This document shows, one piece after another, positions 2,586 to 62,718 of a stretch of DNA of 64,000 nucleotides. Location: positions 62,001-126,000 of the forward strand of contig NZ_AQQZ01000003.1 in assembly GCF_001205715.1 (NCBI RefSeq), written 5' to 3'. The notes under the pieces were generated by a model that was not told the origin of the DNA, did not search any database, and was given only the letters and a program-made list of their open reading frames with translations. The first letter of the stretch is position 1. Each line of letters starts with the position of its first letter. The DNA is from Pseudaestuariivita atlantica. Its GTDB lineage: Bacteria; Pseudomonadota; Alphaproteobacteria; Rhodobacterales; Rhodobacteraceae. A program made the translations under genes and the position numbers.

Positions 2586-4502
2586 ATGTCCGCCTTCCTG
2601 TCTCAAGCCGTGCTTTACCTGACCGCCGCGGTGATCTGCGTGCCGCTGGCTACCCGGCTGGGGCTGGGATCGGTGCTGGGCTACCTGATCGCCGGGATCG
2701 CGATCAGCCCGCTGCTGGCGGTGCTGCGCGTCGACGTGGTGGCAATCCAGCATTTTGCCGAGTTCGGCGTGGTGATGATGCTGTTCCTCATCGGGCTGGA
2801 ACTGGAGCCGCGCGCGGTGTGGAACATGCGCCACCGCCTGCTGGGACTGGGCGTCAGCCAGGTCGTGCTGACCACCGGGCTGGTGGCGATCCTTGCCATG
2901 CTGCTGGGGCTTTACTGGACGACCGCGCTGGCGGTCGGCATGATCTTTTCCCTGTCCTCGACCGCGATCGTGCTGCAGACGCTCAGCGAAAAGGGGCTGA
3001 TGTCGACGGCGGGCGGGCGCTCCACCTTCTCGGTCCTGCTTACGCAGGACGTGGCGGTGATCCCGATCCTTGCGTTCCTGCCGCTGCTGGCGCTGCCGGC
3101 CTTCGCGACGCTCAACCCCGACGGGTCGATCGCCCGGTCCGGCGACAAGGCCGACGAGGCGCACGGCGCCATGTCGCTGGTCGAAGGCCTGCCGGGCTGG
3201 GGCGTGACGCTGGTGACCGTGGGCGCCATCGTCGCGGTGATCCTCGCCGGGCGCTACCTTGCCGGGCCGCTCTTCCGCTACATCCACCACACCCGTCTGC
3301 GCGAGATGTACGTGGCGCTGTCGCTGGCGATGGTCGTGGGCATCGCCTTCCTGATGTCGGTCGTCGGCCTGTCACCGGCGCTCGGCACTTTCCTCGCCGG
3401 CGTGGTGCTCGCCAATTCCGAGTTCAAGCACGAGATCGAAAGCGATCTCGAACCGTTCAAGGGCCTGCTCCTGGGGCTGTTCTTCATCACCGTCGGCGCG
3501 GGCATCCGGTTCGACGTGCTGATCGCCGATCCGCTCGTGATCGTGGCGCTGACGCTGGGCATCATGGTGCTGAAAGGGCTGGTGCTTTATGGCCTCGCCC
3601 GCATGTTCAGGCTGCGCGGGCGCGACCAGTGGCTGTTCGCGCTGGGGCTGGCGCAGGCGGGCGAGTTCGGCTTCGTGCTCATCTCCTTCGGCCTGCAGCA
3701 ATCGGTGCTGCCCCCCGACCTTGCCGAACGGCTTCTGCTGGTCGTGGCGCTGTCGATGCTCGTGACGCCGGTGCTGTTCATCCTCTACGACAGGATCGCG
3801 CGCCGGTCACCGGGCGACGGCGAAACCGGCACCCATGACGAAATCGACGATGACGGCCCGGTGATCATCGCCGGGGTCGGGCGCTTCGGGCAGATCGTGA
3901 ACCGGCTGGTGCAATCCTCGGGCGTGAAGACCGTGGTGATCGACAACTCGCTCAAGACCATCCAGCTGATGCGCAAGTTCGGCTTCAAGGGCTATTTCGG
4001 CGATCCCACCCGCCCCGACCTGTTGCGCTCGGCGGGACTGGCAAAGGCGCGGGTGCTGGCGGTCTGCGTCGATGACGTGGAGGCGGCGGTCAAGCTGGTG
4101 GCCTATGCCCGCAAGGAGCGCCCCGACCTGCACATCGTGGCCCGCGCGCGAGACCGCAACCATGTCTACCGCCTCGTCCGGGCGGGCGCGAACGACGTCG
4201 TGCGCGAAACCTTCGACGCCTCGCTGCGCGCGGGCCGCTACGTGCTGGAAAATGCAGGCCTCACGGAATACGAGGCCCACCGCGCCGAAGAGACGTTCTA
4301 TGAACACGACCGTCACGCCCTGCGGGCGCTGGCCGACCTGTGGAAACCCGACGTGCCCGAGACGGAAAACGCCGATTACATCGCCAAGGTGCGCGAGCTT
4401 GAGGCCGAGTTGCAGACCGCGCTTCTGAACCAGATCGAGGTGGGAGATGCGCGCGAGGCCGTGGCCGATCCCTCCGCCCCGCCCGGACCCGGCAAAAGCT
4501 GA
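2586..4502 (+). CDS. CPA2-family cation:proton antiporter (KefB/KefC-like)
   Basis: A 638-residue inner-membrane antiporter of the Kef/YbaL group, exchanging K+ (or Na+) for protons. Residues 1-400 form about 12 hydrophobic helices with family patterns such as LGLGSVLGYLIAGI, FLIGLELEPR and SLSSTAIVLQTLSEKG. From about residue 425 there is a cytosolic RCK_N (TrkA-N) domain with the nucleotide-binding loop GVGRFGQI. Ligand binding there normally gates transport. The C-terminal 60 residues are charged and probably helical. The start has aaggatccgcc before the ATG and lies 10 nt after the regulator stop, so cotranscription is possible. Confidence 0.92.
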   Translation: MSAFLSQAVLYLTAAVICVPLATRLGLGSVLGYLIAGIAISPLLAVLRVDVVAIQHFAEFGVVMMLFLIGLELEPRAVWNMRHRLLGLGVSQVVLTTGLVAILAMLLGLYWTTALAVGMIFSLSSTAIVLQTLSEKGLMSTAGGRSTFSVLLTQDVAVIPILAFLPLLALPAFATLNPDGSIARSGDKADEAHGAMSLVEGLPGWGVTLVTVGAIVAVILAGRYLAGPLFRYIHHTRLREMYVALSLAMVVGIAFLMSVVGLSPALGTFLAGVVLANSEFKHEIESDLEPFKGLLLGLFFITVGAGIRFDVLIADPLVIVALTLGIMVLKGLVLYGLARMFRLRGRDQWLFALGLAQAGEFGFVLISFGLQQSVLPPDLAERLLLVVALSMLVTPVLFILYDRIARRSPGDGETGTHDEIDDDGPVIIAGVGRFGQIVNRLVQSSGVKTVVIDNSLKTIQLMRKFGFKGYFGDPTRPDLLRSAGLAKARVLAVCVDDVEAAVKLVAYARKERPDLHIVARARDRNHVYRLVRAGANDVVRETFDASLRAGRYVLENAGLTEYEAHRAEETFYEHDRHALRALADLWKPDVPETENADYIAKVRELEAELQTALLNQIEVGDAREAVADPSAPPGPGKS

Positions 4503-4517
4503 TCCCCGCCGCGCATG

Positions 4518-4552
4518 AAAAAGGCCGCCCCCGGTCTCTCCGGGGACGGCCC
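4518..4552 (-). terminator. Rho-independent terminator of carD
   Basis: On the minus strand a 12-bp stem with one C-A mismatch (GGCCGTCCCCGG/CCGGGGGCGGCC) is followed by five T residues. It begins 20 nt after the carD stop. It lies between carD and the convergent antiporter gene and may stop both transcripts. Confidence 0.8.
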
Positions 4553-4572
4553 TTCAAATGGCTTGGTGCGGA

Positions 4573-5082
4573 TCAGGCCGCGCGCGACAGCAGCACCTCG
4601 TCCACCTTCTTGGCGGCGGCGCCCTCGTCCCCGCCCGACACGGCGGACACTTCGCGGGTCAGGCGTTCCAGCGCGGCTTCGTACAGCTGGCGCTCGGAAT
4701 AGCTCTGTTCGCGCTGGTCGTCGTTGCGGTGCAGGTCGCGCACCACTTCGGCAATCGCGATCAGGTCGCCCGAGTTGATCTTCTGCTCGTATTCCTGTGC
4801 CCGGCGCGACCACATCGCGCGCTTCACACGGGCCTTGCCCTTGAGCGTCTTCATCGCCTGGTCGACCACGTCCGGCGACGACAGCGACCGCATACCCACA
4901 TCCTCGGCCTTGTTGGTCGGGACGCGCAGGGTCATCTTGTCCTTCTCGAACGAAATCACGAACAGTTCCAGCGACATCCCCGCCACTTCCTGTTCCTCGA
5001 TCGACACGATCTTGCCCACGCCGTGGGCCGGATACACAACGAAGTCGTCGGGACGAAACTCATGTGTCTTGGACTTGCTCAT
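4573..5082 (-). CDS. carD: CarD family transcriptional regulator
   Basis: A 169-residue protein that binds the RNA polymerase beta subunit and stabilises open promoter complexes; in Rhodobacter relatives it is a global activator of weak promoters. The N-terminal RNA-polymerase interaction domain is clear (DFVVYPAHGVGKIVSIEEQE, then VISFEKDKMTLRVPTNKAE). The remaining about 100 residues form the helical DNA-binding part (WSRRAQEYEQKINSGDL). The start is preceded by aaggaaggaccc. It stands alone, 279 nt from the ferredoxin gene, and that gap is AT-richer than its surroundings and must hold its promoter. An inverted repeat (gccgcggagtgcggc, about 5103-5117) lies just before the ribosome binding site. 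Confidence 0.95.
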   Translation of the reverse strand: MSKSKTHEFRPDDFVVYPAHGVGKIVSIEEQEVAGMSLELFVISFEKDKMTLRVPTNKAEDVGMRSLSSPDVVDQAMKTLKGKARVKRAMWSRRAQEYEQKINSGDLIAIAEVVRDLHRNDDQREQSYSERQLYEAALERLTREVSAVSGGDEGAAAKKVDEVLLSRAA

Positions 5083-5361
5083 ACGGGTCCTTCCTTGCAG
5101 GCGCCGCGGAGTGCGGCGACAAAAAGCCCAAGTGTCCCGGAGAGCGGCTCCGCAACGACTTGGACAATTATTTCTAAGCAGCGTTCTTCACCCCGGCAGA
5201 CAGGGCGATACCAGTGCAAACGGTTGTATCAGGCAACCATAGCACAAAAATGGGGCAGGTTCCAGAAATTACAACGCACGGAAGCGCAAACCGCCTGTTT
5301 TTCAACGGTTTACAGGTAAAATTCTACAAATTGCGCGGTTGCACTGGTCGCGGCGCGCGAA

Positions 5362-5700
5362 TCAGCCGCCCTCGCCCGGCGCTTCCGAGAAGTATTTCTC
5401 CAGCTTGCCATCCTCGCCGTCGCGTTCCTCGGCGTTGGGCAGCGGGTCCTTCTTGGTGATGATGACCGGCCATTTCTCGGCATACTTGCGGTTGAAATCC
5501 ACCCATTCCTCCGCGCCCGGCTCGGTATCGGGCTTGATCGCCTCGGCCGGGCATTCCGGCTCGCACACGCCGCAATCGATGCATTCGTCCGGGTGGATCA
5601 CCAGCATGTTCTCGCCTTCATAGAAGCAATCGACCGGGCAGACCTCCACGCAGTCGGTGTACTTGCAGGCAATGCAGGCGTCGTTGACGATGTATGTCAT
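5362..5700 (-). CDS. fdxA: Seven-iron ferredoxin FdxA
   Basis: A 112-residue soluble electron carrier. Cys9, Cys12, Cys17 and Cys21-Pro in the first 25 residues, and a second cluster [12 protein letters not shown] near residues 40-50, match the [3Fe-4S][4Fe-4S] FdxA type. Length and the C-terminal extension ([13 protein letters not shown], ending acidic) fit the alphaproteobacterial form. It lies 17 nt downstream of the S4-domain gene, so it is probably in one operon with it and the helicase. Its redox partner cannot be told from sequence. Confidence 0.95.
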
Positions 5701-5717
5701 GGCGGACCTTTACGCTC

Positions 5718-6116
5718 TCACTCGGGGCCGGGATAGCCCGGCTTCCCGCCCGCTTCAAGGTGCCCTTTGGCCGCAAGGTCCAGCGTTCTGCGATCGCGCT
5801 TGGTCGGGCGACCCTTTCCGTCGAAACGCGGATTGGCCGGGCCGTCCTCCCGCGCGGGCGTCAGATCGTCGTACAGCGTCTGCGCCTCGGTTGCCGGGCC
5901 ACGGCGGGCACCCATCGCCACGATGCGCACCACGCGAATCTCGCGGCCCTGCGGAAAGGTGAGCGTCTGGCCCGCCGCCACCGCCTGCGCGGGCTTGGTG
6001 GCGCGGGTGCCGTCGACCCGCACCCGCCCCTCGCTGACCGTGCGCGCCGCCAGCGACCGCGTCTTGAAGAACCGCGCGTGCCACAGCCACTTGTCGAGCC
6101 GCAGCTTTTCGCTCAC
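5718..6116 (-). CDS. S4-domain RNA-binding protein (Hsp15 family)
   Basis: A 132-residue protein with the S4 RNA-binding fold at residues 5-65 (RLDKWLWHARFFKTRSLA, VSEGRVRVDG). A basic tail follows (GRPTKRDRRTLDLAAK). Hsp15 relatives bind 50S subunits that carry a stranded nascent chain and help recycle them. It starts 8 nt after the helicase stop, so the two RNA-related genes are likely cotranscribed. Confidence 0.9.
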   Translation of the reverse strand: MSEKLRLDKWLWHARFFKTRSLAARTVSEGRVRVDGTRATKPAQAVAAGQTLTFPQGREIRVVRIVAMGARRGPATEAQTLYDDLTPAREDGPANPRFDGKGRPTKRDRRTLDLAAKGHLEAGGKPGYPGPE

Positions 6117-6124
6117 GGGCGCGC

Positions 6125-9031
6125 TCAGTCCTTCTTCAGCGCGGCCAGCGCGGCGAAGGGGTTGTCGGGATCGACGGGCTTGTCCTTCTTCGGCGGACGC
6201 GCCTCGTAGGTCTTGGCACCCTGCGGCTTGCCGCCGCCATGGGGCTTGCCGCCCTTGCCCTTGCCCTTCGGCTTGCCCTTGCCCGCGTTGCGCGGACGCC
6301 CGTCATTGCGGCCCCCGCCACCCTGCCGGCGGCCCTGCTCGCGCGGCGGCTTGCGGCCCCAGGTGAAGGTATAGAACACCTCGGTCTCGGGGCCGGCCAG
6401 CGCGGCATCGGCCACCTCGCCCGGCGCGGCCTCCTCCGCCGCCACGTCCGGCACCGGCGCCTCTGGCGCGGGCTCGGGCGGTTCGGCGGCCACGGGCGCT
6501 TCGCCCTCGGCAGGCATGTCCTCGGTCGCGGCAAGGTCGGCGGCGGGCGGTGCCTCGGCCGGGGCGGCCCCGGTGCCCTCGGCGGGGATGGTCGCATCCA
6601 TCACCGGCGCGTCGCCTGTCGCCTCGGTCTCGGCGACGACGGTATCCACGGGCTTCACCTTCTCGCGCTCGCCACGCTCGGCCTTGTAGCCAAGTCCCTG
6701 CATCAGGTCGGCGAACTGTTCCAGCGTCATGCCGGTGATCGACAGCATGTCGGCCTTGGCTTCGAACCCGCCACGGCTGTCCTCGCCGCGCAACTGGTCG
6801 GCAAGGCGTTCCAGCATGTCGATGCGGATCGCGCGCTCGCCCGCCACGCGGTACCCCGCGACGGCATCCACGCCCTCGGGCGTCAGCGTCGCCGACGGTA
6901 CGGTGACCAGCCCCGGAGGCGGCGCCGACGGGAAATCATCCAACCCCTGCGCCAGCGACCACAGCACCAGCCGCAACCGCGTCGGCGCGGGTTTCAGCAG
7001 AAGCGGCATGAAGATCGTGAACTGTCCGAACCGCATCCCGTGCTTGCGCAGGCTGCCCCGCGCGTCCTGGTCCAGCGCCTTGACCTCGTCGGCCACGCCC
7101 GCGCGCGGCAGAACGCCCATCGCCTCGACCATGCGGTAGGCAAAACCCCGCGCCAGCCCCGACAACGCCTCGTCCGCCTTCAGCGCCAGGAGGGGTTCGA
7201 ACAGCGCCGCGACCTTGCGATCCATGAAATGCTGCAAGCGGCGCTCGACCTTCTGCGCGACGTCCGGGCCCGCGGCCTCGTCCACGAAGGCTGCGATGCG
7301 CGGCTTCATCGGGTCGTCGCCCGCCGCCAGCTTGCCCACCGCCTGGTCGCCCCACATCAGGCCACCCTGGTCGGTGAAGTCGATCTCGGTATCGGGGGCG
7401 TTGTAGAACCGGTCCGCCCGCAGGTGGAAATGCGGCGCAAGTGCCTGCAGCGACGCCGTTTTCAGCGTCTTGGCTTCCTGCCCCTGCGCACCCTTGTCCT
7501 GGATAAACCGGAACCCTTCGAGACGGCCCGCGAATTCACCTTCGACGGTCACCTCACCAGAATCGTTCACTTCGGCCAACAGGGCCTCCTTTTGCTTCAA
7601 CCGGCGAAGCAGCACGCTGGTCCGCCGGTCGACAAATCGTTGCGTCAGCGCGCCATGCAGCGCGTCCGACAGACGGTCTTCTACAGCCCGTGTCTCGTCA
7701 CGCCAATGGTTTTCGTCGCGCAGCCAGTTCGAACGCTGCGCTACGTAGGTCCATGTCCGCACGAAAGCGAGCCGTTTGCTGAGCGTGTCGATATCCCCGT
7801 CCGTCCGGTCGATCCGCTTCACCTGCCGCGCCAGCCAGTCCTCGGCCACCTCGCCATGCTGGTGCAGATCGGTGAACAAACGCTCCAGCAGCCCCGCATG
7901 TTCCCCGGCTGAAATCCCCCGGAAATCGGGCACCCGGCACACGTCCCACAACAACTGGACCGAGGCCGGGTCAGACGCCCGCGCCGCCACCTCGGTCACC
8001 TCCGCCAGCGCCTTCAGGGCGCGCAGGTCATCGGCCTCCCTCGCGCGGGCGAGCGTCAGGTCGTCGGGGCCTTCCTCGAGGGACGAGATCAGGCTGTCCA
8101 CCGACCCGAACCGCAGATGCGGGTTGCGCCATTGCAGCTTGGATATGGGCGTGAAGCGATGCGACACGATGGCGTCGGCCACCGCGTCGTCCAGCGGCCG
8201 CGCCTCGCCCGTGACCCCGAACGTGCCCGAACGCATGCCCCGCCCCGCGCGCCCCGCGATCTGCGCCAGTTCGTTCGGGGCAAGCGGCCGCATCCGCCGC
8301 CCGTCGAACTTGGACAGGCCGGAAAAGGCGACGTGGTCGATATCAAGGTTCAGGCCCATCCCGATGGCATCGGTCGCGACGAGGTAATCGACCTCGCCGT
8401 TCTGGTACATCGCCACCTGCGCGTTGCGCGTGCGCGGGCTGAGCGCCCCCATCACCACCGCCGCGCCACCCTTCTGGCGGCGGATCAGTTCCGCGATGGC
8501 ATAGACGTTCTCGACCGAGAAACCGACGATCGCCGTGCGCGGCTGCAACCCGCGCAGCTTCTTCGAGCCGGTATAGGCCAGTTGCGACATCCGTTCACGG
8601 CTGACGAACTCGACCCCCGGCACCTGCGCCGCGATAGGCCCGCGCATGGTGGAGGCGCCCAGGAACAGCGTCTCGTGCAGGCCGCGCGCGTTCAGCAGCC
8701 GGTCAGTAAAGACATGGCCCCGCTCGGGATCGGCGCAAAGCTGGATCTCGTCGATGGCAAGGAAATCGCAGCCCATCGCGGGCGGCATCGCCTCGACCGT
8801 GCAGACCCAGTATTGCGTGCGGGGCGGCACGATCCGCTCCTCGCCGGTGACCAGTGCCACGACGCCCGGACCGCGCGCCGCAACCAGCCGGTCGTAGACC
8901 TCCCGCGCCAAGAGGCGCAGCGGCAGGCCGATGATGCCGGTGCGATGGCCCAGCATGCGCTCCAGCGCATAGGTGGTCTTGCCGGTATTGGTAGGGCCAA
9001 GGACCGCAACGGTCCGCCCGGACGACGCCAT
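6125..9031 (-). CDS. SUV3-like DExH RNA helicase
   Basis: A 968-residue superfamily 2 helicase related to mitochondrial SUV3. Walker A is GPTNTGKTT (residues 12-20), motif II is DEIQ (AIDEIQLCADPERGHVF, around residue 93), and motif VI is IAGRAGRGMRSG. The helicase core is about 1-340 and a long helical region extends to about 770. The C-terminal 200 residues are low complexity: first an Ala/Pro/Glu acidic stretch, then a Gly/Lys/Arg-rich basic stretch, ending DNPFAALAALKKD. That tail probably binds RNA or partners. It heads the operon with the S4 protein and FdxA. The biological substrate is unproven; SUV3 enzymes unwind RNA for degradosomes. Confidence 0.93.
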   Translation of the reverse strand: MASSGRTVAVLGPTNTGKTTYALERMLGHRTGIIGLPLRLLAREVYDRLVAARGPGVVALVTGEERIVPPRTQYWVCTVEAMPPAMGCDFLAIDEIQLCADPERGHVFTDRLLNARGLHETLFLGASTMRGPIAAQVPGVEFVSRERMSQLAYTGSKKLRGLQPRTAIVGFSVENVYAIAELIRRQKGGAAVVMGALSPRTRNAQVAMYQNGEVDYLVATDAIGMGLNLDIDHVAFSGLSKFDGRRMRPLAPNELAQIAGRAGRGMRSGTFGVTGEARPLDDAVADAIVSHRFTPISKLQWRNPHLRFGSVDSLISSLEEGPDDLTLARAREADDLRALKALAEVTEVAARASDPASVQLLWDVCRVPDFRGISAGEHAGLLERLFTDLHQHGEVAEDWLARQVKRIDRTDGDIDTLSKRLAFVRTWTYVAQRSNWLRDENHWRDETRAVEDRLSDALHGALTQRFVDRRTSVLLRRLKQKEALLAEVNDSGEVTVEGEFAGRLEGFRFIQDKGAQGQEAKTLKTASLQALAPHFHLRADRFYNAPDTEIDFTDQGGLMWGDQAVGKLAAGDDPMKPRIAAFVDEAAGPDVAQKVERRLQHFMDRKVAALFEPLLALKADEALSGLARGFAYRMVEAMGVLPRAGVADEVKALDQDARGSLRKHGMRFGQFTIFMPLLLKPAPTRLRLVLWSLAQGLDDFPSAPPPGLVTVPSATLTPEGVDAVAGYRVAGERAIRIDMLERLADQLRGEDSRGGFEAKADMLSITGMTLEQFADLMQGLGYKAERGEREKVKPVDTVVAETEATGDAPVMDATIPAEGTGAAPAEAPPAADLAATEDMPAEGEAPVAAEPPEPAPEAPVPDVAAEEAAPGEVADAALAGPETEVFYTFTWGRKPPREQGRRQGGGGRNDGRPRNAGKGKPKGKGKGGKPHGGGKPQGAKTYEARPPKKDKPVDPDNPFAALAALKKD

Positions 9032-9051
9032 GACCGAAGGCTCCCGCGAGG

Positions 9052-9618
9052 TTACAGATCGACGCCCACGGCACTGGCCGCGGTTCGCTTCAGGCCTTCG
9101 ACGATCTCCTTGTCCAGCGGGTTGTACGTTTCGGCCAGCTTGTAGGCGGCATAGGCCATCGCCCCGTCGCCCAGCGTCTCGTAGATCGCGCCGATGCCCC
9201 GGATCGCGCCGAAATGGTCGGGGTTCAGCGCCAGCGTGCGTTCGAGGTCGGCCGCCGCCAGCCCGAACCGCTTCTGCTGGAAGAAGACCATCGCGCGGGT
9301 ATGCCAGCCTTCCGCGAAATCGGGCGCGTGGTCGGTCAGCGCCGTCAGGTGCTCGACCGCCTCGGTCAGGTCGCCCCGCTCCAGCGCGTCACGGCCCCGC
9401 GTCAGCAAAAGGTCCATCGACGCCGATCCCGACCGCGACCATTCCAGCTGGATTTCCCGCACCACGCGGGCCGCCGCCTCGGGCGTGGGGGCCTGCCGCA
9501 ACCGGTCCAGAGCCGACGTTCCGTCACTTTCCGCATGGGCGGACAAAGGTAAGGAAAACATGACTACGGACGCAAATGCCGTGACGGTACGTTTGAAAGT
9601 GGTGTGACTCGGGCGCAT
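9052..9618 (-). CDS. Exported TPR-repeat protein
   Basis: A 188-residue protein. The start at 9618 is chosen because it gives a clean signal peptide (MRPSHTTFKRTVTAFASVVM, then FSLPLSAHA with cleavage after AHA). Three TPR-like units follow between residues 60 and 160 (RGDLTEAVEHL, RFGLAAADLERTLALNPDH, DGAMAYAAYKLAETYNPLD). It should act in the periplasm as a protein-protein interaction scaffold; the partner is unknown. It lies 20 nt upstream of the helicase gene on the same strand and is divergent from the SCP2 gene. Confidence 0.85.
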   Translation of the reverse strand: MRPSHTTFKRTVTAFASVVMFSLPLSAHAESDGTSALDRLRQAPTPEAAARVVREIQLEWSRSGSASMDLLLTRGRDALERGDLTEAVEHLTALTDHAPDFAEGWHTRAMVFFQQKRFGLAAADLERTLALNPDHFGAIRGIGAIYETLGDGAMAYAAYKLAETYNPLDKEIVEGLKRTAASAVGVDL

Positions 9619-9680
9619 ATTCACGAATGTAACGTGGAACGCGGGGATTACCACCGCAACGACAGCGAAGGGGATGCGCT

Positions 9681-9971
9681 ATGAGCGACGTAATGGCCGA
9701 GGCCGAAGCCGCCTTGAAGGCGAAACTGGCCGATGCCGATATCGGCGGCACCGTGAAATTCGACATCGAGGGCGAAGGCGCCATCATGGTCGATGACGGC
9801 GGCGTGCGCCAGGGCGACGATGCCGCGGATGTCACGCTGAAGGCCGATGCCGACACGTTCCGCGAAATCCTCGACGGCTCGCTCAACCCCACCGCGGCGT
9901 TCATGGGCGGCAAGCTCACCGTCGACGGGGATATGGGCCTTGCCATGAAACTGGCCTCGGAACTCGGCTGA
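9681..9971 (+). CDS. SCP2 sterol-binding domain protein
   Basis: A 96-residue single-domain protein of the SCP2 family, which binds lipids or acyl-CoA in a hydrophobic tunnel. Family signatures are GTVKFDIEGEGAIMVDDGG, ADVTLKADADTFREILDG and FMGGKLTVDGDMGLAMKL. Its stop overlaps the next ATG by one base, so it is translationally coupled to an alpha/beta hydrolase. This suggests lipid or fatty-ester handling. Confidence 0.92.
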   Translation: MSDVMAEAEAALKAKLADADIGGTVKFDIEGEGAIMVDDGGVRQGDDAADVTLKADADTFREILDGSLNPTAAFMGGKLTVDGDMGLAMKLASELG

Positions 9972-10960
9972 TGGCTGCGGCGGCTCCTCTATATACCGAT
10001 GTGGCCGAAGGGCCCGAGGGCGGGGCCGCCTACTGGCTCACGACGATGGACGGCGTGCGCGTGCGCGCCGGCATCTGGCCGGCCGCGGGCACCGCGAAGG
10101 GCACGATCCTGCTCTTTCCCGGCCGCACCGAGTATATCGAGAAATATGGCCGCACCGCCTGCGACCTGACCGCGGCGGGCTATACCGTGCTGGTCATGGA
10201 CTGGCGCGGGCAGGGCCTCGCCGACCGGATGCACCCGGACGAAAAAGCGGGCCATGTCGAGAAATTCCGCGATTATCAACATGATGTCGCGGCGATGATG
10301 GACCTCGCCCGCGAACTGGAACTGCCGGAACCGTTCCACCTGATCGCCCATTCGATGGGCGGCTGCATCGGTCTCCGCGCGCTGTACGAAGGGCTGCCCG
10401 TTTCGTCCGTGGCCTTCTCGGGCCCGATGTGGGGTATCAGCATCTCGGCCCCGGTCCGCCCGGCGGCATGGGTGCTGGGATGGGGGTCGGGCAAGCTTGG
10501 CCTCGGCGGCACCTATGCCCCCGGCACCAAGCCGCAGGCCTACGTGATCGCCGAGCCGTTCGAAAACAACCAGCTCACCACCAGCCCCGAGATGTTCCAC
10601 CATCTCCAGCGCCAGATCGGCCGCTACCCCGAACTGGGGATCGGCGGGCCCTCGCTGACATGGCTGCACGAGGCGCTTCTTGAATGTCGCGGGCTGGCGC
10701 GCATGCCCTCGCCCGACCTGCCCTGCCGCACCTTCGTCGGCGCGTGCGAGCGGATCGTCGATATCGGCCGCATCCGCGAACGGATGGACAAGTGGCCCGG
10801 CGGCAAGCTCGACGTCATCGAGGGCGCCGAACACGAAGTGTTGATGGAGATCAAGTCCGTCCGCGACTGGGTCACCTCGGAAATCATCGCGCATTTCGAC
10901 GCCCATGGCCGTGCCTCGGGCACCGCCGTTCCGGGCGGAGCCATCGCCCAGCGCGCCTGA
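9971..10960 (+). CDS. Alpha/beta hydrolase (S33/lysophospholipase-like)
   Basis: A 329-residue cytosolic hydrolase. The nucleophile elbow is AHSMGG (near residue 121). The N-terminal strand pattern (ILLFPGRTEYIEKYGRTA, VLVMDWRGQG) is that of the PldB/monoacylglycerol lipase group. The catalytic acid and His are in the last third (IEGAEHEVLME). It is coupled to the SCP2 protein by a 1-nt overlap. The substrate is probably a lysolipid or fatty ester, by family only. Confidence 0.88.
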   Translation: MAAAAPLYTDVAEGPEGGAAYWLTTMDGVRVRAGIWPAAGTAKGTILLFPGRTEYIEKYGRTACDLTAAGYTVLVMDWRGQGLADRMHPDEKAGHVEKFRDYQHDVAAMMDLARELELPEPFHLIAHSMGGCIGLRALYEGLPVSSVAFSGPMWGISISAPVRPAAWVLGWGSGKLGLGGTYAPGTKPQAYVIAEPFENNQLTTSPEMFHHLQRQIGRYPELGIGGPSLTWLHEALLECRGLARMPSPDLPCRTFVGACERIVDIGRIRERMDKWPGGKLDVIEGAEHEVLMEIKSVRDWVTSEIIAHFDAHGRASGTAVPGGAIAQRA

Positions 10961-11040
10961 CGACGCGCCCCGCCCCACGGGCGGGCCCGCGCCTTGCACC
11001 GGCACTGGACGGGACAGCCAGGCTCGCTACCATCACCGCC

Positions 11041-12048
11041 ATGGCCCCGATCCTCACCCATACCGACAAGGGCATCTACTGCGCCGCCGGCGATTTCTGG
11101 ATCGATCCGTGGCGCCCGGTGCCGCGCGCGCTCATCACCCACGGCCATGCCGACCACGCCCGCCCCGGCATGGGCGCCTACCTCGCCACTCACGCCGCCC
11201 TACCCGTCCTCCGCCACCGGCTGGGCGAGATCGACGCCGAAGGCATCAGCTATGGCGAGACGCGCCGGATCGGCGCGGCGAGCGTCTCGTTCCATCCCGC
11301 CGGACACGTCCCGGGCTCCGCCCAGATCCGGGTCGAGGTCGCGGGCGAGGTCTGGGTCGTCTCGGGCGATTACAAGGTCGAACCCGACGGCCTGTCCGAA
11401 CCGTTCGAACCGGTCCGCTGCCACCACTTCATCACCGAATGTACCTTCGGCCTGCCGGTGTTCCGCTGGCAGCCACAAGCGACGGTGATGGCGCAGGTCA
11501 ACGACTGGTGGCGGGCCAATGCCTCCGCCGGGACCGTGTCGATGCTGGGCGCCTATTCGCTCGGCAAGGCGCAGCGCCTCATCGCCAATATCGATGCCGC
11601 GATCGGCCCCATCCTGACCCACGGCGCGGTCGAGGCCACGAACGCTGTCCTGCGCGCGCAGGGCTATGACCTGCCCGACACGATCCACTGGACATCGGAT
11701 GCGGGCAAACCGCCGCGCGACGCGCTGGTCATCGCGCCCCCCGGCGCGCTCGACGGGCAATGGGCCCGCGCCTTCGGCACACGCTCGACCGCCTTCGCCT
11801 CGGGCTGGATGGGCGTGCGCGGCATCCGCCGCCGCCGCGCCGGCGACCGGGGCTTCGTCATCTCCGATCACGCCGACTGGCCCGGCCTTCTGTCGGCCAT
11901 CCGCGACACCGGGGCCGAAAACGTCTACCCGACCCACGGCTATACCGACATCTTCGCCCGCTACCTGTCCTCCGAACTGGGCCTCAACGCGCAGGTCTGG
12001 GAGGCCGAATATGGCGGCGACGACGCAGAGGAGGTCGACGCCGCATGA
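11041..12048 (+). CDS. Ligase-associated DNA exonuclease (metallo-beta-lactamase/beta-CASP fold)
   Basis: A 335-residue nuclease of the group usually encoded with bacterial ATP-dependent DNA ligase. The metal-binding HxHxDH motif is THGHADHARPG near residue 37, with further ligands in SFHPAGHVPGS, SGDYKVEPDG and FVISDHADW. The frame is open upstream to 10684, but the ATG at 11041 begins the family start (MAPILTHTDKGIYCAAGDFW). It overlaps the next gene by 4 nt. It probably trims 3' ends in a repair pathway. Confidence 0.9.
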   Translation: MAPILTHTDKGIYCAAGDFWIDPWRPVPRALITHGHADHARPGMGAYLATHAALPVLRHRLGEIDAEGISYGETRRIGAASVSFHPAGHVPGSAQIRVEVAGEVWVVSGDYKVEPDGLSEPFEPVRCHHFITECTFGLPVFRWQPQATVMAQVNDWWRANASAGTVSMLGAYSLGKAQRLIANIDAAIGPILTHGAVEATNAVLRAQGYDLPDTIHWTSDAGKPPRDALVIAPPGALDGQWARAFGTRSTAFASGWMGVRGIRRRRAGDRGFVISDHADWPGLLSAIRDTGAENVYPTHGYTDIFARYLSSELGLNAQVWEAEYGGDDAEEVDAA

Positions 12049-12932
12049 CCCTGTCCCGCCGCCAACAGGTTGCAAATGCCTGGGCACGCTACGTGCAGAA
12101 GCCGACCCTTGGCTTCACGCCGAACCAGAAGCTCCTGAACGGCATCTTCCACGCGACCTCGGCACATCTGCGCACCGTTCCCGGCACGCGCCAAAGCCGC
12201 GCCACACCCGGCGGCATCGACACCCGCGTGATCGAAGGCGCCGGGCAAAGCCCGAACCTTCTGATCTACCTCCACGGGGGCGGCTTTTCGATCGGTGGCC
12301 CGTTCACCGTGCGCGGCATGGCCTCCCGCCTCGGACAGGCCGCGGGCTGCACCACCTGGCTGCCGCGCTACCGCCTCGCCAGCGCCGCCTCCTATCCCGC
12401 CGCACCCGACGATTGCTTTGCCGTCTACCGTGCCGCGCTGGACACCCATGCTCCCGACCGCATCGTGCTGGCGGGCGACAGCGCGGGCGGGTGCCTCGTG
12501 CTCAACACGCTCACCCGTGCGGCGGATCACGGCCTGCCGATGCCCGCTGCCGTGGGCCTGATCGCCCCGGTCGTCGATCTGCGCCCCGACAACCCGGCGC
12601 GCGCGGCCTTCCCCCATGGCGACGGCCTGCTGCCCGCACGCTGGTTGCGGCGCAGCATCCCCATGTACCTCGGAGGTCACGACCCCGCCGATCCGGGCCT
12701 CTCCCCCATCTTCGCCGACCTGTCCAAGGCACCGCCCGCGCTGGTCCAGGTCGGCGATACGGAGCTTTTACGCGACGACGCGGAACGCCTTGTCCAGCAC
12801 ATGCCGAATGCCCGCCTCGACGTCTGGGAGGGGGTTCCGCATGTCTGGCACATGAATGCCGGGCTGGTGCCCGAAGCCACCCGCGCGGTGCAGGACATGG
12901 GTGCCTTCCTGCGCGGCCACCTGCCGCCATGA
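12045..12932 (+). CDS. Alpha/beta hydrolase, hormone-sensitive lipase family
   Basis: A 295-residue esterase-like protein. The oxyanion-hole motif HGGGF and the nucleophile motif GDSAGG (LAGDSAGGCLVLN) identify the HSL/GDSAG group. A catalytic Asp and His follow near the C-terminus (VGDTELLRDDAERL, VPHVWHM). It overlaps both neighbours by 4 nt, so it is coupled between the exonuclease and the DNA ligase. No repair role is known for such an enzyme, which makes the location odd. Confidence 0.9.
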   Translation: MTLSRRQQVANAWARYVQKPTLGFTPNQKLLNGIFHATSAHLRTVPGTRQSRATPGGIDTRVIEGAGQSPNLLIYLHGGGFSIGGPFTVRGMASRLGQAAGCTTWLPRYRLASAASYPAAPDDCFAVYRAALDTHAPDRIVLAGDSAGGCLVLNTLTRAADHGLPMPAAVGLIAPVVDLRPDNPARAAFPHGDGLLPARWLRRSIPMYLGGHDPADPGLSPIFADLSKAPPALVQVGDTELLRDDAERLVQHMPNARLDVWEGVPHVWHMNAGLVPEATRAVQDMGAFLRGHLPP

Positions 12933-56433: not shown

Positions 56434-57588
56434 TCAGAAGAACGAGATGTCGTCGACGATCTGCATCGGGTCGGTGATGCCGCGCAGGTCGATCTCCCAC
56501 GGGCCGAGGTCGATCACCAGCCCGGTCGCCGTCAGCGTGGCGTGGTCGGCCAGAAGTTCGGCGGCGGTCGTCACCCCCGGCGGCAATTCGATGGACGCGA
56601 TGCGCAGCCGGTCGAGGCCCGGTTCGAAATCGAGGACCACGTCGTTGCCGGGCGAGGCGTTGAACAGGAAGAGGTCGGCATCCGCGCCGCCCGACAGGGT
56701 ATCGTTGCCGAACCCGCCATCGACCACGTCGCGGCCCGAGCCGCCGTAAAGCCGGTCGTTGCCCGCGGATCCGATCACCGTGTCGTCGCCCGCCTGACCC
56801 AGCACGATGTCGTCATGCCCGCCGCCGTTCATCAGGTCGTTGCCGTCGCCGCCGCGCAGCCGGTCATTGCCCGCGCCGCCCTGCATCGTGTCGTCGCCGT
56901 CATGGCCGAACAGGCTGTCATCGCCGTCGGCGCCGTTCAGGTCGTCATTGCCCTCGGCCCCCCAGACGATGTCGTTGCCTTCGTTGCCGAACATGAAATC
57001 GTCGCCGCGCCCGCCATGCATCCGGTCGTTGCCGTCGCCGCCGAACATGCTGTCGTCGCCGCCCGCGCCGCGCAGGCTGTCATCGCCGTCGCCCGAACTG
57101 ACGAAGTCGTCGCCGGCGCGGGAAAACACGGTATCGGCGCCGCCGCCCGACGTGACGGTATCCGCGCCGTCGCCTGTGAGGATCGTGTCCGACCCGATGC
57201 CGCTCAGCACCGCGAACCGTTCGATGCCGGTAAAGACCAGCCCGAACCCCGCCGACCCCGGTGCCGCACCCACCGCCGCCGCCGTGAAGGACAGCGGGGC
57301 GGACGTCACGGTGAGGTCGAGCACGTCGTCGCCGCCCCCGCCCACGATCCGTTCAAGATCGAGCGTCGCGCCGCCCATGTCGGTCAGGAGAAACAGGTCG
57401 CTGCCGCCGAACCCGCGCAGCGTGTCGTTGCCCGCGCTGCCTTCGAACGTGTCGTTGCCAATGCTGCCGAGGGCGAGGTCATTGCCGGCGCCGGGGCGGA
57501 ACAGATCACCGCCTCCGACCCCGTCCAGCGTGTCGTTGCCGGCGGTGCCGATCAGCGTTTCGGGATCCGTCGTGCCGGTAATGAGCAT
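56434..57588 (-). CDS. RTX (hemolysin-type calcium-binding) repeat protein
   Basis: A 384-residue protein built almost wholly from GGxGxDxxx nonapeptides: two blocks at about 15-70 and 130-330, with a beta interruption around 75-125. There is no signal peptide, as expected for type I secretion. The last 60 residues (FNASPGNDVVLDFEPGLDRL, ending DDISFF) look like the C-terminal export signal. Probably an extracellular calcium-folded protein. No ABC exporter is nearby. It has no catalytic domain. Confidence 0.92.
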   Translation of the reverse strand: MLITGTTDPETLIGTAGNDTLDGVGGGDLFRPGAGNDLALGSIGNDTFEGSAGNDTLRGFGGSDLFLLTDMGGATLDLERIVGGGGDDVLDLTVTSAPLSFTAAAVGAAPGSAGFGLVFTGIERFAVLSGIGSDTILTGDGADTVTSGGGADTVFSRAGDDFVSSGDGDDSLRGAGGDDSMFGGDGNDRMHGGRGDDFMFGNEGNDIVWGAEGNDDLNGADGDDSLFGHDGDDTMQGGAGNDRLRGGDGNDLMNGGGHDDIVLGQAGDDTVIGSAGNDRLYGGSGRDVVDGGFGNDTLSGGADADLFLFNASPGNDVVLDFEPGLDRLRIASIELPPGVTTAAELLADHATLTATGLVIDLGPWEIDLRGITDPMQIVDDISFF

Positions 57589-57698
57589 GGCACCATCCTT
57601 TCGAAATCACGCCATTCTAGCGCATTTCGCGGATCATGTCACAGGTTCGCGGTGGTGATGGCGGGACCGGCGACGCGGCAAGGCCACGTCTCCATGGC

Positions 57699-58790
57699 CT
57701 ATTTCGCGATGCGGCGGCGCGGCAGGACCGGGCGCAGGAGCGACAGGAGCGTCGCCCCGCTGGCCAGAGGCGGCGCGGTTTCGTGCAGCCTTTCGGACGG
57801 GTCCGACCGGACCGCACGGGGGCGGCGGATCAGGAAAATCCGGCCAATGCCGCGCCACGTGCCGGTCGAGGGTGCCTCGGGGTCGGTGGGAAAGCGCAGG
57901 CGCCAGCCGGACGGCAGGTCGAGGCCCGCGGCCTCGGCCTCTTCCAGCAACCATGTCAGCGGGATGTTCGACAGGCCGCGCGCCGGGGCGAAGCCACCCA
58001 GTTGCCCGCCGATATCGCCGTGAGTGCCGCGGAACCAGACCTGTTCGACGCGGTCGGGATCCTCGTCCGGCGCGGTCGTCCACATGACAGGGGTATAAAC
58101 CGCGCGGGTTTCGTCCAGCGCCAGCGCGTGGCGACCGCGCTTGACGCAATGGCCCAGTTGGGTGGAGTGAAAGGCGTGCCGGTTCTCGGTCAGCCGCCAG
58201 ATCAGCGGCAGGCGGATGCCCAGCGCCTTTACCGTGTCCCAGGCCCCGACGAATTCGATGTCCACGTGCCGGTGGCAATAGGCCTCGGCAAACAACTGGC
58301 CGCGTTCGCCCTGCGGGTCACATTCGTAGAAGTTGTAAAGCGCGCGCACGTTGTCGACGGTGGCGCGCGAGGGGCGCAGCAGGCCCATCCGGTCGATCAC
58401 GCCCGCCAGCGAGCGGACGGCAAAGCCGCCGCGCGAATAGCCCAAGAGGTAGATGCGGTCGCCGGGGTGATAGTTGCGCGCCAGCCAGCGATAGGCGCGG
58501 CGGATCTGGCGATTGAGCCCGCGCCCGATGGCCACGTCACGCAGCGAACGCCAGTTCTGCCACTGGATGCCCGGTTCGTAGAACAGGGAAACGTCGTCGC
58601 CGGCTTCCTGCATCAGGCGGTAGGCCAGCCCCGCATTGGTTTCGCAACCGGGGCTGAGGGACGACATCGTCCCGTCAAGGATGATGACAAGCGCGCGAGA
58701 CTTGCGGGTGGGTGCGGGAACTGGATCGTCGCGGCGACGGCGCCACCGCGAGATGTTCAGAAGTCTATTCAGCCGCGATCCCTTGAGCAT
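57699..58790 (-). CDS. DUF2235 hydrolase (Tle1-like fold)
   Basis: A 363-residue alpha/beta hydrolase. It has LVIILDGTMSS (residues 34-44) at the oxyanion strand, YLLGYSRGGFAVRSLAG with the nucleophile Ser, FVGAWDTVKALG and FRGTHGDIGGQLGG with the catalytic His. This is the DUF2235 pattern shared with type VI lipase effectors, but no secretion gene is near. The start lies inside the end of the upstream molybdo-enzyme gene, a 26-nt overlap. Confidence 0.88.
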   Translation of the reverse strand: MLKGSRLNRLLNISRWRRRRDDPVPAPTRKSRALVIILDGTMSSLSPGCETNAGLAYRLMQEAGDDVSLFYEPGIQWQNWRSLRDVAIGRGLNRQIRRAYRWLARNYHPGDRIYLLGYSRGGFAVRSLAGVIDRMGLLRPSRATVDNVRALYNFYECDPQGERGQLFAEAYCHRHVDIEFVGAWDTVKALGIRLPLIWRLTENRHAFHSTQLGHCVKRGRHALALDETRAVYTPVMWTTAPDEDPDRVEQVWFRGTHGDIGGQLGGFAPARGLSNIPLTWLLEEAEAAGLDLPSGWRLRFPTDPEAPSTGTWRGIGRIFLIRRPRAVRSDPSERLHETAPPLASGATLLSLLRPVLPRRRIAK

Positions 58791-61065
58791 CCTGCAACAT
58801 TTCCCATACCCTGAGGGGCGTGAACGGCATGTCTGCCTTGGCTACACCCCGCGCCCACAGCGCATCATGAACGGCATTCGCCGTCGCCGCCATGGACCCG
58901 ACCGTTCCGGCCTCTCCACACCCCTTCATCCCCATGATGTTGGCGGTGGATGGCACGGGTTCGGTCGTAAACCCGATCATGGGCATAAGATCGGCCCTTG
59001 GCATGGCGTAATCCATGAAACTTGCCGTGAGCAGCTGTCCCTCTTCGTCGTAAATTACGTGTTCGGTAAGCGCCTGCCCGACACCCTGAACGACGCCGCC
59101 ATGCACCTGACCCTCAACGAGCATCGGGTTGATCAGGTTCCCGAAATCGTCGACGACCGTGTATTTACAAAGAGTTACCACGCCGGTCGCCGGGTCGACC
59201 TCGACCTCGGCGACGTGGGCGCCGTTGGGGAAGGAGCGCGCGTCGAGCTTGGTGCGGGCCTCGTGCTGCAAGAGGTCGTCGCGGCCCGCCTCGCGTGCCT
59301 TTTCGGCCACATCGAGCATGGTCAGAACCACGTTTGACCCCTCTGCGCGGAAGGTTTCGTGATCGAATGAAACATTTTCCGCGTCCACCCCGGCCAATTC
59401 CGCCACAAAGGGGGTGAAGGCCGCCACAATCGTGTCGACCGCGGCCAGCGTGGCGGTGTTCTGCACGGTCACGGACCGCGACCCGCCGGTGCCGCCGCCC
59501 TGCTTGATCCGGTCGCTATCCCCCTGCACCACGCGGATTTTCTCGGGCGGGATGCCGGTCTGGTCATGCAGGAACATGGTGTAGACGGTTTCGTGCCCCT
59601 GCCCGTTCGACTGGGTGCCGACGAACAGGTCGACCATGCCGTCTTCGGCGAATTCGACCCGCGCGCTTTCCGACGGATCGCCGAGGATCGATTCGATGTA
59701 GTAACACAAACCCAGCCCGCGCAGGCGCCCGCGCGCCTCGCTCGCGGCGCGGCGCGCGGCGAAACCGGGGCGGTCGGCCTGCGCTTCGGCGGCGGCGAGG
59801 ACGCGGTGGAAATCACCCACGTCATAGGTCTCCCCTACCAGCGTGTCATAGGGGAACTGGTCGGCGCGGATGAAATTCTTGCGGCGCAACTCCCAGGGAT
59901 CGACGCCCAGTTCGCGCGCTGCCTGGTCCATCAGGCGCTCCATCAGATAGATCGCCTCGGGCCGGCCCGCGCCGCGATAGGCGTCGACCTGCGTGGTGTT
60001 GGTATAAACGCCTTCGACATGCAGCCAGGTGGCAGGGATGTCGTAGACGCTTGTCAGCACGCGGGAGAACAGCTGCGTCTGGATCGGTTGCGCGAATTGC
60101 GAGTTGTAGGCGCCGAGGTTGCAGATCGTGTGCACACGGTAGGCGGTGATGCGATTGTCGGCGTCGAAGGCCATCTCGGCGGTGTGGACCAGGTCGCGCC
60201 CGGCATTGTCCGACAGCATTCCTTCCGACCGGTCCGACATCCAGCGCACCGGATGGTCCAGTTGCATCGCGGCAAAGGCGATACACACGTTCTCGGGATG
60301 CTCCATCGCCTTCATGCCGAACCCGCCGCCTACGTCCGGGTTGGTGACGCGCACGTTGTCCGCCGCGAGGTCGAACTTGGCCGCCAGCTTGGACTTGGTG
60401 CCCCAGACACCCTGCCCGTTCACGCACAGGTGCAGGCGCGTGCCGTCCCATTCGGCCCAGACGCCGCGCCCTTCCATCGCGTTCACGATGACGCGGTTGT
60501 CGCCCACGTCCATCGACACGGTGCGCGCGGCCTTGGCAAAGGCGGCGTCAGTCGCGTCGGCATCGCCCATGCCCCAGTCGAAGGCGCGGTTGTCCGGGGC
60601 CTCGGGGTGGATGGTCGGCCCGTTGAAATCAAGCGACAGGCTGACCGGCAGCTCGTCGTACTCGAACACGATCAGTTCGGCGGCATCGCGCGCCTGCGCC
60701 AGCGTGTCGGCCACCACCACCGCCACCGGTTCGCCGACGAACCGCACACGGTCCCTGGCGAGTTCCGCCCGCAGGGGCGACGCACCGGTCGAGCCGTCGA
60801 TGTTCTTGACCGTCGTGCCATCCATGCCCAGCGTGAGGCCCGCCGCCTCCATGTCGTCGGCGGAGAAGACCATGTGCACGCCCTCGGCCTCGCGCGCGTC
60901 GGACAGGTCCAGTTCGGTGATGGTGGCATGGGCCACGGGGCTGCGGAACACGAAGGCGTGGAAGGCGTGTGCGGGTGCGATGTCGTCCACGTAACGGCCA
61001 TGTCCGGTGAGAAAGCGGACATCCTCGATCCGGGTGATGGGCTGCGATCTGCCAAACTTTTCCAT
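58765..61065 (-). CDS. Molybdopterin hydroxylase large subunit (CoxL/XDH family)
   Basis: A 766-residue protein. It has VGGGFGMKAMEHPENV (about 245), AYRGAGRPEAIYLMERLMD (360) and GCGEAG with the catalytic Glu (716), the xanthine dehydrogenase/aldehyde oxidase signature. The active-site loop lacks the AYRCSFR of true CO dehydrogenase, so it is a form II-type enzyme. The frame is open to 62643, but MEKFGRSQ at 61065 is the family start. The FAD and Fe-S subunits are not adjacent. It is divergent from the oxygenase gene. Confidence 0.88.
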   Translation of the reverse strand: MEKFGRSQPITRIEDVRFLTGHGRYVDDIAPAHAFHAFVFRSPVAHATITELDLSDAREAEGVHMVFSADDMEAAGLTLGMDGTTVKNIDGSTGASPLRAELARDRVRFVGEPVAVVVADTLAQARDAAELIVFEYDELPVSLSLDFNGPTIHPEAPDNRAFDWGMGDADATDAAFAKAARTVSMDVGDNRVIVNAMEGRGVWAEWDGTRLHLCVNGQGVWGTKSKLAAKFDLAADNVRVTNPDVGGGFGMKAMEHPENVCIAFAAMQLDHPVRWMSDRSEGMLSDNAGRDLVHTAEMAFDADNRITAYRVHTICNLGAYNSQFAQPIQTQLFSRVLTSVYDIPATWLHVEGVYTNTTQVDAYRGAGRPEAIYLMERLMDQAARELGVDPWELRRKNFIRADQFPYDTLVGETYDVGDFHRVLAAAEAQADRPGFAARRAASEARGRLRGLGLCYYIESILGDPSESARVEFAEDGMVDLFVGTQSNGQGHETVYTMFLHDQTGIPPEKIRVVQGDSDRIKQGGGTGGSRSVTVQNTATLAAVDTIVAAFTPFVAELAGVDAENVSFDHETFRAEGSNVVLTMLDVAEKAREAGRDDLLQHEARTKLDARSFPNGAHVAEVEVDPATGVVTLCKYTVVDDFGNLINPMLVEGQVHGGVVQGVGQALTEHVIYDEEGQLLTASFMDYAMPRADLMPMIGFTTEPVPSTANIMGMKGCGEAGTVGSMAATANAVHDALWARGVAKADMPFTPLRVWEMLQDAQGIAAE

Positions 61066-61227
61066 GACGGCACCTGTGCGATGTTCGGGGGTTGCGGGGA
61101 CGATAGCGGGCGGCGCGGCGGTGTCCAGCGCTGGTTTGTTTGCGGCGCGGACGTGTCGCGGACAAGCGCGCGCCCCCGTGCAGCCTGTCGGAGGCTGGAG
61201 GCGACGGGAAAATGCCGGGAGGAGAAG

Positions 61228-62103
61228 ATGGCACTTGACCTCACCGCCGGGAAGCTGGGCGCGGCGCAGCAGGAGGCCTATTGGCGGGACGGATACCTGC
61301 ACCCGATCCGCGTGATGGACGGGGCCGAGGCCGCGGGTTTCCGCACCCGGTTCGAGACGCTGGAACATGACTGGCTCGACAACGGGTTGCCCAAGGCGCT
61401 GAACGTCTACAAGCGCACCAACAGCCATGTCGTGATGCCCGACGCCGCCGCCCTGGCCCGCGACAGTCGCGTGCTGGACGTGGTCGAAGGCGTGCTGGGC
61501 CCCGACATCGCGATCTTCTCGGCCGAGTTCTTCGTGAAGGAGCCGCGCACCGATCACATCGTGTCGATGCACCAGGACCTGACCTATTGGGGTCTTGGCG
61601 CGATCGACGGGCTGGTGACGGCGTGGATCGCGATATCCCCCGCCACGCGCGCCTCGGGCTGCATGGATTTCGTGCAGGGCAGCCACAAGAACGCGATCCT
61701 CGAACATGAAGACACCTATGCCGCGAACAACCTGCTCAGCCGCGGGCAGGAGGTGAAGGTCGATATCGCGCCCGAAGACCGCGTCGCGATCGAGTTGCAG
61801 CCGGGCGAGATGTCGCTGCATCACGGGCTGACGATCCACGGGTCGGGGCCGAACACGTCCGCTGACCGGCGGATCGGCTTCGTCATCCGCTACATCCGGC
61901 CCGACATGGTCCCGCAGGGCGGGATCGACTATGCCATGGCCGCGCGCGGGCGACAGAACCCCGACAATTTCCGGAGCGTGCCTGTTCCGCAGGCCGATTT
62001 CGCCCCCGAAGCGGTGGCGCTGCACGAGGAAATCCGCCAGCATCAGGCGTCGGTGATGATGGCGGGCGCCAAGGGCGCGTCGGCCGAGGGCATGTACGAG
62101 TAG
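61228..62103 (+). CDS. Phytanoyl-CoA dioxygenase family enzyme (PhyH-like)
   Basis: A 291-residue Fe(II)/2-oxoglutarate oxygenase. The iron triad is His115 and Asp117 in SMHQDLTYWG, plus His204 in LTIHGSGPN. The 2-oxoglutarate Arg is in SADRRIGFVIRY. AGGAGAAG precedes the ATG. It is followed 18 nt later by the HD-domain gene, an arrangement like PhnY-PhnZ and TmpA-TmpB. The substrate is therefore perhaps a phosphonate, but this is inference. The frame is open upstream to 59566, antisense to the molybdo-enzyme. Confidence 0.9.
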   Translation: MALDLTAGKLGAAQQEAYWRDGYLHPIRVMDGAEAAGFRTRFETLEHDWLDNGLPKALNVYKRTNSHVVMPDAAALARDSRVLDVVEGVLGPDIAIFSAEFFVKEPRTDHIVSMHQDLTYWGLGAIDGLVTAWIAISPATRASGCMDFVQGSHKNAILEHEDTYAANNLLSRGQEVKVDIAPEDRVAIELQPGEMSLHHGLTIHGSGPNTSADRRIGFVIRYIRPDMVPQGGIDYAMAARGRQNPDNFRSVPVPQADFAPEAVALHEEIRQHQASVMMAGAKGASAEGMYE

Positions 62104-62121
62104 GACGACAGGAGGGGCGCG

Positions 62122-62718
62122 ATGGCACAGGTCAAGTTCACGCAGATGAAGGACGGCGACAAGGCGGATTACGACCTGCTGCACCCGCTGGAGGTCGAAT
62201 ACGCGGCGGGCACCGTCGACCGGCTGTTGAAGGCGCTGGTATCGCTGGATGAATCGCTGTCGGGCTACCAGGTCACGCGGCTGGAACATTCGCTGCAATC
62301 GGCGACGCGGGCGGAACGGGACGGGGCCGATACCGACTGGATCGTGTCGGCGCTTCTGCACGATATCGGCGACATCTTCGCGCCCTACAACCACGACGAA
62401 TACGCCGCCACCATCCTCAAACCCTTCGTGCGCGAGCAATGCACCTGGGTCGTGGAAAAGCACGGCGATTTCCAGATGATCTATTACGGCCATCACGTGG
62501 GCGGGAACCCCAACAAGCGCGACGCCTATGCCGGCCACGCCTATTTCGACGATTGCGCGGCGTTTTGCGAGCGGTGGGACCAGGCCTCGTTCGATCCCGA
62601 TTACGACATGCTCCCGATCGCGCATTTCGAGGCGCGGGTGCACGAGGTCTTCGCGCGCACGCCCTATGACCCTGCCGTGATCCGCCCCGGCGCGCGGGAG
62701 CCGCTGTTCACGGCCTGA
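62122..62718 (+). CDS. HD-domain protein (PhnZ/TmpB-like oxygenase candidate)
   Basis: A 198-residue HD protein. The motif order is LEHSLQSA (Glu55, His56), LLHDIGDIF (His80, Asp81), YYGHHVGG (His124-125) and a C-terminal RWDQASFDPDYD. The first block with Glu next to His is typical of mixed-valent diiron HD oxygenases such as PhnZ, which cleave a C-P or C-C bond with oxygen. Directly downstream of the PhyH-type enzyme, so the two probably act in sequence. Confidence 0.88.
   Translation: MAQVKFTQMKDGDKADYDLLHPLEVEYAAGTVDRLLKALVSLDESLSGYQVTRLEHSLQSATRAERDGADTDWIVSALLHDIGDIFAPYNHDEYAATILKPFVREQCTWVVEKHGDFQMIYYGHHVGGNPNKRDAYAGHAYFDDCAAFCERWDQASFDPDYDMLPIAHFEARVHEVFARTPYDPAVIRPGAREPLFTA

Follow-up and report, generated by a model that had tools for sequence, protein, structure and literature searches.

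A review of the HD-domain oxygenases (PMC8177086) names only three characterised enzymes, MIOX, PhnZ and TmpB. Diiron HD hydrolases such as YqeK share their scaffold, and PhnZ and TmpB, but not MIOX, carry a substrate-gating loop, YxxE, ahead of the first ligand histidine (PMC8177086). In the PhnY*/PhnZ system, which acts on 2-aminoethylphosphonate, and in GmPhnY/GmPhnZ1, which acts on methylphosphonate, a 2-oxoglutarate-dependent hydroxylase precedes the HD oxygenase. TmpA/TmpB of Leisingera caerulea acts on 2-trimethylaminoethylphosphonate, and MIOX (PF05153) is the myo-inositol oxygenase. A 64,000-nucleotide stretch of DNA from Pseudaestuariivita atlantica, a marine-type alphaproteobacterium, hereafter the window, contains a gene pair with the same succession, a predicted 2-oxoglutarate-dependent hydroxylase followed by an HD-domain protein. 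The second member of this conserved pair represents a subfamily, as yet uncharacterised, of an enzyme type already known, with a fold like that of PhnZ, TmpB and MIOX.

The first gene, OX (61228..62103, plus strand), encodes a 291-residue PhyH-family Fe(II)/2-oxoglutarate oxygenase and the second, HD (62122..62718, plus strand), a 198-residue HD-domain protein predicted to be a diiron oxygenase distinct from PhnZ, TmpB and MIOX. The 18-nt gap between them (62104..62121, plus strand) holds a ribosome-binding-like CAGGAGG ahead of the HD start, and GGGAGGAGAAG precedes the ATG of OX; a good ribosome-binding-like sequence thus stands ahead of both genes. The initial annotation of this DNA had read them as neighbours on one strand, 18 nt apart, with intact iron ligands in OX (His115, Asp117 and His204) and the motifs LEHSLQSA (54-61) and HDIG (80-83) in HD, and coordinates and residues all agree with this. 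A 162-nt intergenic stretch (61066..61227), presumed to be the promoter region, separates OX from a divergent gene encoding a large subunit of the CODH/glyceraldehyde-dehydrogenase type (58765-61065, minus strand), which has no adjacent medium or small subunit. This CODH-like gene is syntenic across the family with valyl-tRNA synthetase and a DUF2235/Tle1-like gene. On its other side lies an RTX-like protein with GGDGND repeats (56434-58667, minus strand), which adjoins the DUF2235 protein; the DUF2235 family resembles the Tle1 catalytic domain. From window position 62764 onward, a 517-residue protein with one CXXCH is encoded on the minus strand (767-2317 of locus L172); it has no NCBIfam match, and the 381 residues within the window have no Pfam match. 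The molybdo-enzyme subunit and the cytochrome had been taken to bear on the substrate of the pair, a view that finds no support: the CODH-like gene is retained where OX is absent, as part of the local synteny, and the cytochrome, which matches no Pfam or NCBIfam family, is not a recurrent neighbour. Neither is kept as a pathway partner.

OX scores 95.1 bits against PhyH (PF05721; cut-off 22). His115, His204, Arg214 and Arg215 are invariant in 28 aligned OX sequences and Asp117 is found in 27 of them; the two arginines are the likely anchor of 2-oxoglutarate. Among solved structures, the closest to the OX model (pLDDT 90.9), in sequence as well as in fold, is ThoJ (PDB 6zyk/6zyl; Z 34.0, rmsd 1.9 over 259 residues, 27% identity), with SyrB2, PHYH, GriE and EctD well behind at Z 20-25. 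OX is therefore not nearest to the ectoine or phytanoyl hydroxylases, a placement that would have told against the initial annotation. ThoJ is a non-heme monooxygenase of natural-product metabolism, in a context unlike that of OX, and its identity to OX is so low that no substrate can be transferred from one to the other. A halogenase is unlikely because the iron-ligand Asp117 is kept, and the score against the chlorinating enzymes (TIGR01762) is 49.7 bits for a cut-off of 226.3. OX thus belongs to the PhyH-type Fe(II)/2-oxoglutarate enzymes and would act as a hydroxylase.

The metal ligands of HD (H56, H80, D81, H91, H114 and D153, in the order H-HD-H-H-D) comprise all six of those of PhnZ, and they are invariant in 76 aligned sequences, an alignment that reaches down to 29% identity. 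Compared with solved structures, the AlphaFold model of HD (mean pLDDT 97.2) comes closest to PhnZ (Z 17.5, rmsd 3.4 over 153 residues), then to TmpB (Z 16.4) and MIOX (Z 11.6), whereas all the remaining HD proteins lie at Z <= 8.1, the YqeK-type and other HD hydrolases at about 6-8. Profile comparison with PhnZ/TmpB-type proteins gives a probability of 99.3% over 150 columns. Because its nearest structures are these three enzymes and because of this profile match, HD most probably has a scaffold of the HD-domain oxygenase type, and by analogy its chemistry is likely to be that of an oxygenase; it does not group with the ordinary phosphohydrolases.

HD nevertheless differs from each of the three. 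It falls far below the cut-offs of the models for PhnZ/Phn-HD (TIGR03276; 38.5 bits against 214.6, over 45 residues only), PhnZ1 (33.1 against 300) and TmpB (NF049941; 32.6 against 300). The MIOX model gives 26.1 bits, above its gathering cut-off of 25, but over only 57 of 249 positions, and two other members of the HD family fall below that cut-off, at 17.8 and 18.6 bits. The phylogeny proposed in the initial annotation places 110 sampled members of the HD family on a branch apart from PhnZ/TmpB (99% SH-aLRT support); since the tree was built quickly and gave warnings of long branches, only that split is used here. The YxxE loop is replaced by LSGY (46-49), with Leu46 and Tyr49 in the Tyr and Glu columns, Tyr49 being present in all 37 close relatives. 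PhnZ/TmpB-type proteins have two further invariant residues, a His directly after HDIG and a Lys four residues past the fifth ligand, which the PhnZ structure papers reportedly describe as holding the phosphonate. HD carries Asp84 and Gln118 in these two columns, and Gln118 is invariant across its family. Nothing in HD corresponds to the LSxAS...LQGG stretch of PhnZ/TmpB, and compared with PhnZ some 20 consecutive residues are missing. Positions 46, 49, 84 and 118 are thus the informative ones; Glu55, which had been suggested as the residue for reference, lacks conservation, 17 of 37 close relatives having Gly there. Taken on these characters, HD belongs to a subfamily separate from PhnZ and TmpB. 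With MIOX it shares a diiron HD-domain fold lacking YxxE, but it is shorter and has HDIGD at a position where MIOX has HDLGK; no inositol genes were seen near HD. With TmpB it shares, besides the fold, a quaternary-ammonium context, and some HD relatives are paired with TmpA-like enzymes, but TmpA itself is TauD/BBOX-like, whereas OX is PhyH. None of 22 PhnZ/TmpB-type loci has an OX-like neighbour, and no locus was found that pairs a PhnZ-type HD protein with an OX relative and by which OX might be compared with PhnY*. The initial likening of the pair to PhnY/PhnZ or TmpA/TmpB therefore holds for the gene order and for the likely chemistry, but not for HD itself, which is neither PhnZ nor TmpB.

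OX and HD are conserved together. Among 60 loci fetched with HD homologues, 28 contain an OX homologue too, which in every case shares the strand of HD, at a distance of 6-78 nt in 26 of them and with a single intervening gene in the other two. When loci were fetched by OX instead, HD adjoined it in 60 of the 80 named loci (two of the 60 with one intervening gene). In a sample of 295 genomes of the family, HD is present in 54 of 56 OX-positive genomes against 45 of 239 OX-negative ones (Fisher 6e-29, relatedness ignored), so that 45 of the 99 HD-positive genomes have HD without OX. In Ruegeria and some other genomes, OX stands alone at this locus; when 16 lone-OX genomes were searched whole, 14 had a match to the HD family elsewhere, five of them 61-82% and nine 43-46% identical. 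The distances between OX proteins and those between HD proteins are correlated (r = 0.815, 73 pairs), and none of 2000 permutations reached as high a value. While gene surroundings vary among genome groups, OX and HD stay together. Their pairing is far beyond chance, and the joint conservation anticipated for the pair is thus observed in related genomes. Beside broader members of the HD family, a hydroxylase neighbour is often absent. Of the loci in which both genes were called, 22 have a LysR gene upstream of OX in divergent orientation; it is absent from the window. In the closest relative, which belongs to the same genus, OX and HD are separated by a gene for a protein of about 300 residues with a weak TPR match (6547-7473 of locus L076).

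The neighbourhoods of HD relatives point to the kind of substrate. Four loci (L130, L131, L134 and L045) show the order BKACE-HD-CDH-acyl-CoA dehydrogenase-ligase-hydratase, where BKACE is a beta-keto-acid cleavage enzyme and CDH carnitine 3-dehydrogenase. The HD relatives inserted between BKACE and CDH are 70-73% identical to HD. In these four loci the genes are as little as 5 nt apart or overlap, and in L130 and L131 the gaps within BKACE-HD-CDH are <= 16 nt. HD genes also lie beside or near BKACE/CDH genes in L114 and L150, the carnitine loci coming from four lineages in total. In pF045_1, a plasmid of P. aeruginosa, the genes run TauD-HD-choline-binding protein-choline dehydrogenase-betaine-aldehyde-dehydrogenase-like, and on a Rhizobium plasmid HD is near genes of these last three kinds. 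One further HD stretch (L037) contains dimethylglycine-dehydrogenase-like proteins, recognised from sequence with no family search. These carnitine and choline settings suggest quaternary-ammonium substrates.

The hydroxylase partners of HD are of several kinds: PhyH, TmpA-like TauD, the FA_hydroxylase type and Rieske oxygenases. The order HD-FA_hydroxylase-PanB-like is found in three loci (L050, L098 and L233), OX-HD-FA_hydroxylase in one (L052) and Rieske-HD-HD-PhyH in another (L163). It would seem that the same HD enzyme is paired with other hydroxylases in related genomes, and its recurrent association with O2-dependent hydroxylases that are unrelated to one another points to hydroxylated products as the substrates of HD. 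In the three loci with a PanB-like protein, that protein scores far under the PanB cut-off and could be a different lyase. L163 and L164 each carry two tandem HD-family genes with a Rieske oxygenase and an SDR gene, the PhyH gene of L163 being on the same strand. A more distant HD branch neighbours class II aldolase/adducin genes in seven loci (L096, L103, L137, L144, L153, L154 and L168), and a 12.9-kb Sphingobium plasmid carries an aldolase-HD-alpha/beta-hydrolase cassette beside an IS1380 element.

The genome of the window has a carnitine/gamma-butyrobetaine operon of its own, with a GlxA/CdhR-like regulator gene (4140-12232 of locus L292, contig C1), whose BKACE and CDH are 83% and 60% identical to those of L045. 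There is no HD gene between the two, an SDR gene filling the slot, and HD was discarded as a member of this operon. No OX-HD pair was seen inside a carnitine locus, and there are no betaine genes adjacent to OX-HD in the window. As the organism's own carnitine operon lacks HD and the OX-HD pair lies apart from it in the genome, the reading of the substrate rests on relatives that are about 46-73% identical to HD.

Our preferred reading, held tentatively and at a little under an even chance, is that OX and HD form a hydroxylate-then-cleave pair, that HD represents an undescribed diiron oxygenase subfamily, and that the substrate is most likely betaine-like and not a phosphonate, as the gene neighbourhoods and the replaced residues suggest. 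OX would hydroxylate a carbon using O2 and 2-oxoglutarate. If HD works as PhnZ, TmpB and MIOX do, it would bind the resulting carbinol at a mixed-valent diiron centre, where a superoxo species would abstract the carbinol hydrogen and the adjacent bond would break: R-CH(OH)-X + O2 -> R-COOH + X-OH. Gamma-butyrobetaine, carnitine or beta-alanine betaine, for example, could yield glycine betaine and a small acid; carnitine would give glycine betaine and glycolate, and 2-hydroxy-beta-alanine betaine would give glycine betaine and bicarbonate. A wider version, which we regard as doubtful though worth stating, is that the HD subfamily cleaves the C-C bond of hydroxylated quaternary-ammonium (carnitine- or betaine-like) compounds after interchangeable hydroxylases (PhyH, TmpA-like, membrane diiron or Rieske), and so would provide an unrecognised aerobic route to glycine betaine or a related acid.

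The same gene order and the closeness of the fold to PhnZ and TmpB could also mean that OX-HD is one more route for phosphonates, like PhnY/PhnZ or TmpA/TmpB, which would hydroxylate the substrate, cleave its C-P bond and release phosphate. We consider this improbable. HD scores far under the Phn-HD, PhnZ1 and TmpB cut-offs and LSxAS...LQGG has no counterpart in it; Gln118 stands in for the invariant Lys, and with Asp84 in the column of the invariant His, HD would be unlikely to take a phosphonate dianion as its substrate. Moreover, the genome already encodes an adjacent TmpA (575.7, cut-off 400) and TmpB (352.8, cut-off 300) on another contig (8824-10547 of locus L171, contig C53). Since both exceed their NCBIfam cut-offs, the organism probably degrades trimethylaminoethylphosphonate, and with this genuine system elsewhere in the genome, the pair in the window is something other than TmpA/TmpB. 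Neither a phosphonate transporter nor any other gene for phosphonates recurs next to OX-HD. In L150, a TauD enzyme over the TmpA cut-off (423 against 400) overlaps an HD gene of the present family by 4 nt, which speaks for a phosphonate; this occurs inside a carnitine island, and the locus was rejected as a full TmpA/TmpB system, its HD partner having the GYP/Asp/Gln residues of the new family and not YxxE. Four other TauD partners of HD score 318-358, under the same cut-off. The expectation of a non-phosphonate substrate is borne out to the extent that the organism's own TmpA/TmpB, the replaced residues and the carnitine/choline neighbourhoods of HD relatives all point that way.

Membership of OX in the PhyH family raises another prospect, of comparably low probability: an alpha-oxidation that would shorten an acyl or hydroxy-acid substrate, OX alpha-hydroxylating it and HD cleaving the 2-hydroxy acid, a membrane enzyme of the fatty-acid-hydroxylase type being an alternative or additional hydroxylase. 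The FA_hydroxylase gene that follows HD in several loci, once as OX-HD-FA_hydroxylase, and the PanB-like gene next in some of them would fit, but FA_hydroxylase is found in a minority of loci, OX is closer to ThoJ than to human PHYH, and the acyl-CoA genes near HD are members of carnitine operons. That OX and HD are co-regulated and act on different substrates, their adjacency owing to a shared role in the habitat rather than to successive steps, appears quite improbable; it would account for the 45 genomes that have HD without OX and for the loci of Ruegeria and others where OX stands alone, but an HD-family gene is kept in 54 of 56 OX genomes, most lone-OX genomes have one elsewhere, and the divergence of the two proteins is correlated. 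Some records annotate HD as a phosphohydrolase or HD-domain protein, and diiron HD hydrolases such as YqeK are built on the same scaffold (PMC8177086), so HD might be an ordinary metal-dependent phosphohydrolase travelling with OX by happenstance. We give this the lowest probability of all the readings considered: HD hydrolases are far behind PhnZ and MIOX in the structural comparison, and HD is repeatedly paired with O2-using hydroxylases.

The HD branch is present in 59 of 398 sampled Pseudomonadota genomes (15%), including a complete genome of 1.2 Mb, and a literature search found no paper on this family. Its members are recorded as phosphohydrolase, inositol oxygenase family or HD protein, and the family may thus be hidden in plain sight. 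Surveys of phnZ have given estimates anywhere between very rare and about 20% of cells (PMC10574752), and we conjecture that the HD family could mislead those in which phnZ is counted by loose homology. If the present reading is true, the HD subfamily would be a fourth branch of HD-domain oxygenases, and the chemistry of the fold would extend further than inositol and phosphonates.
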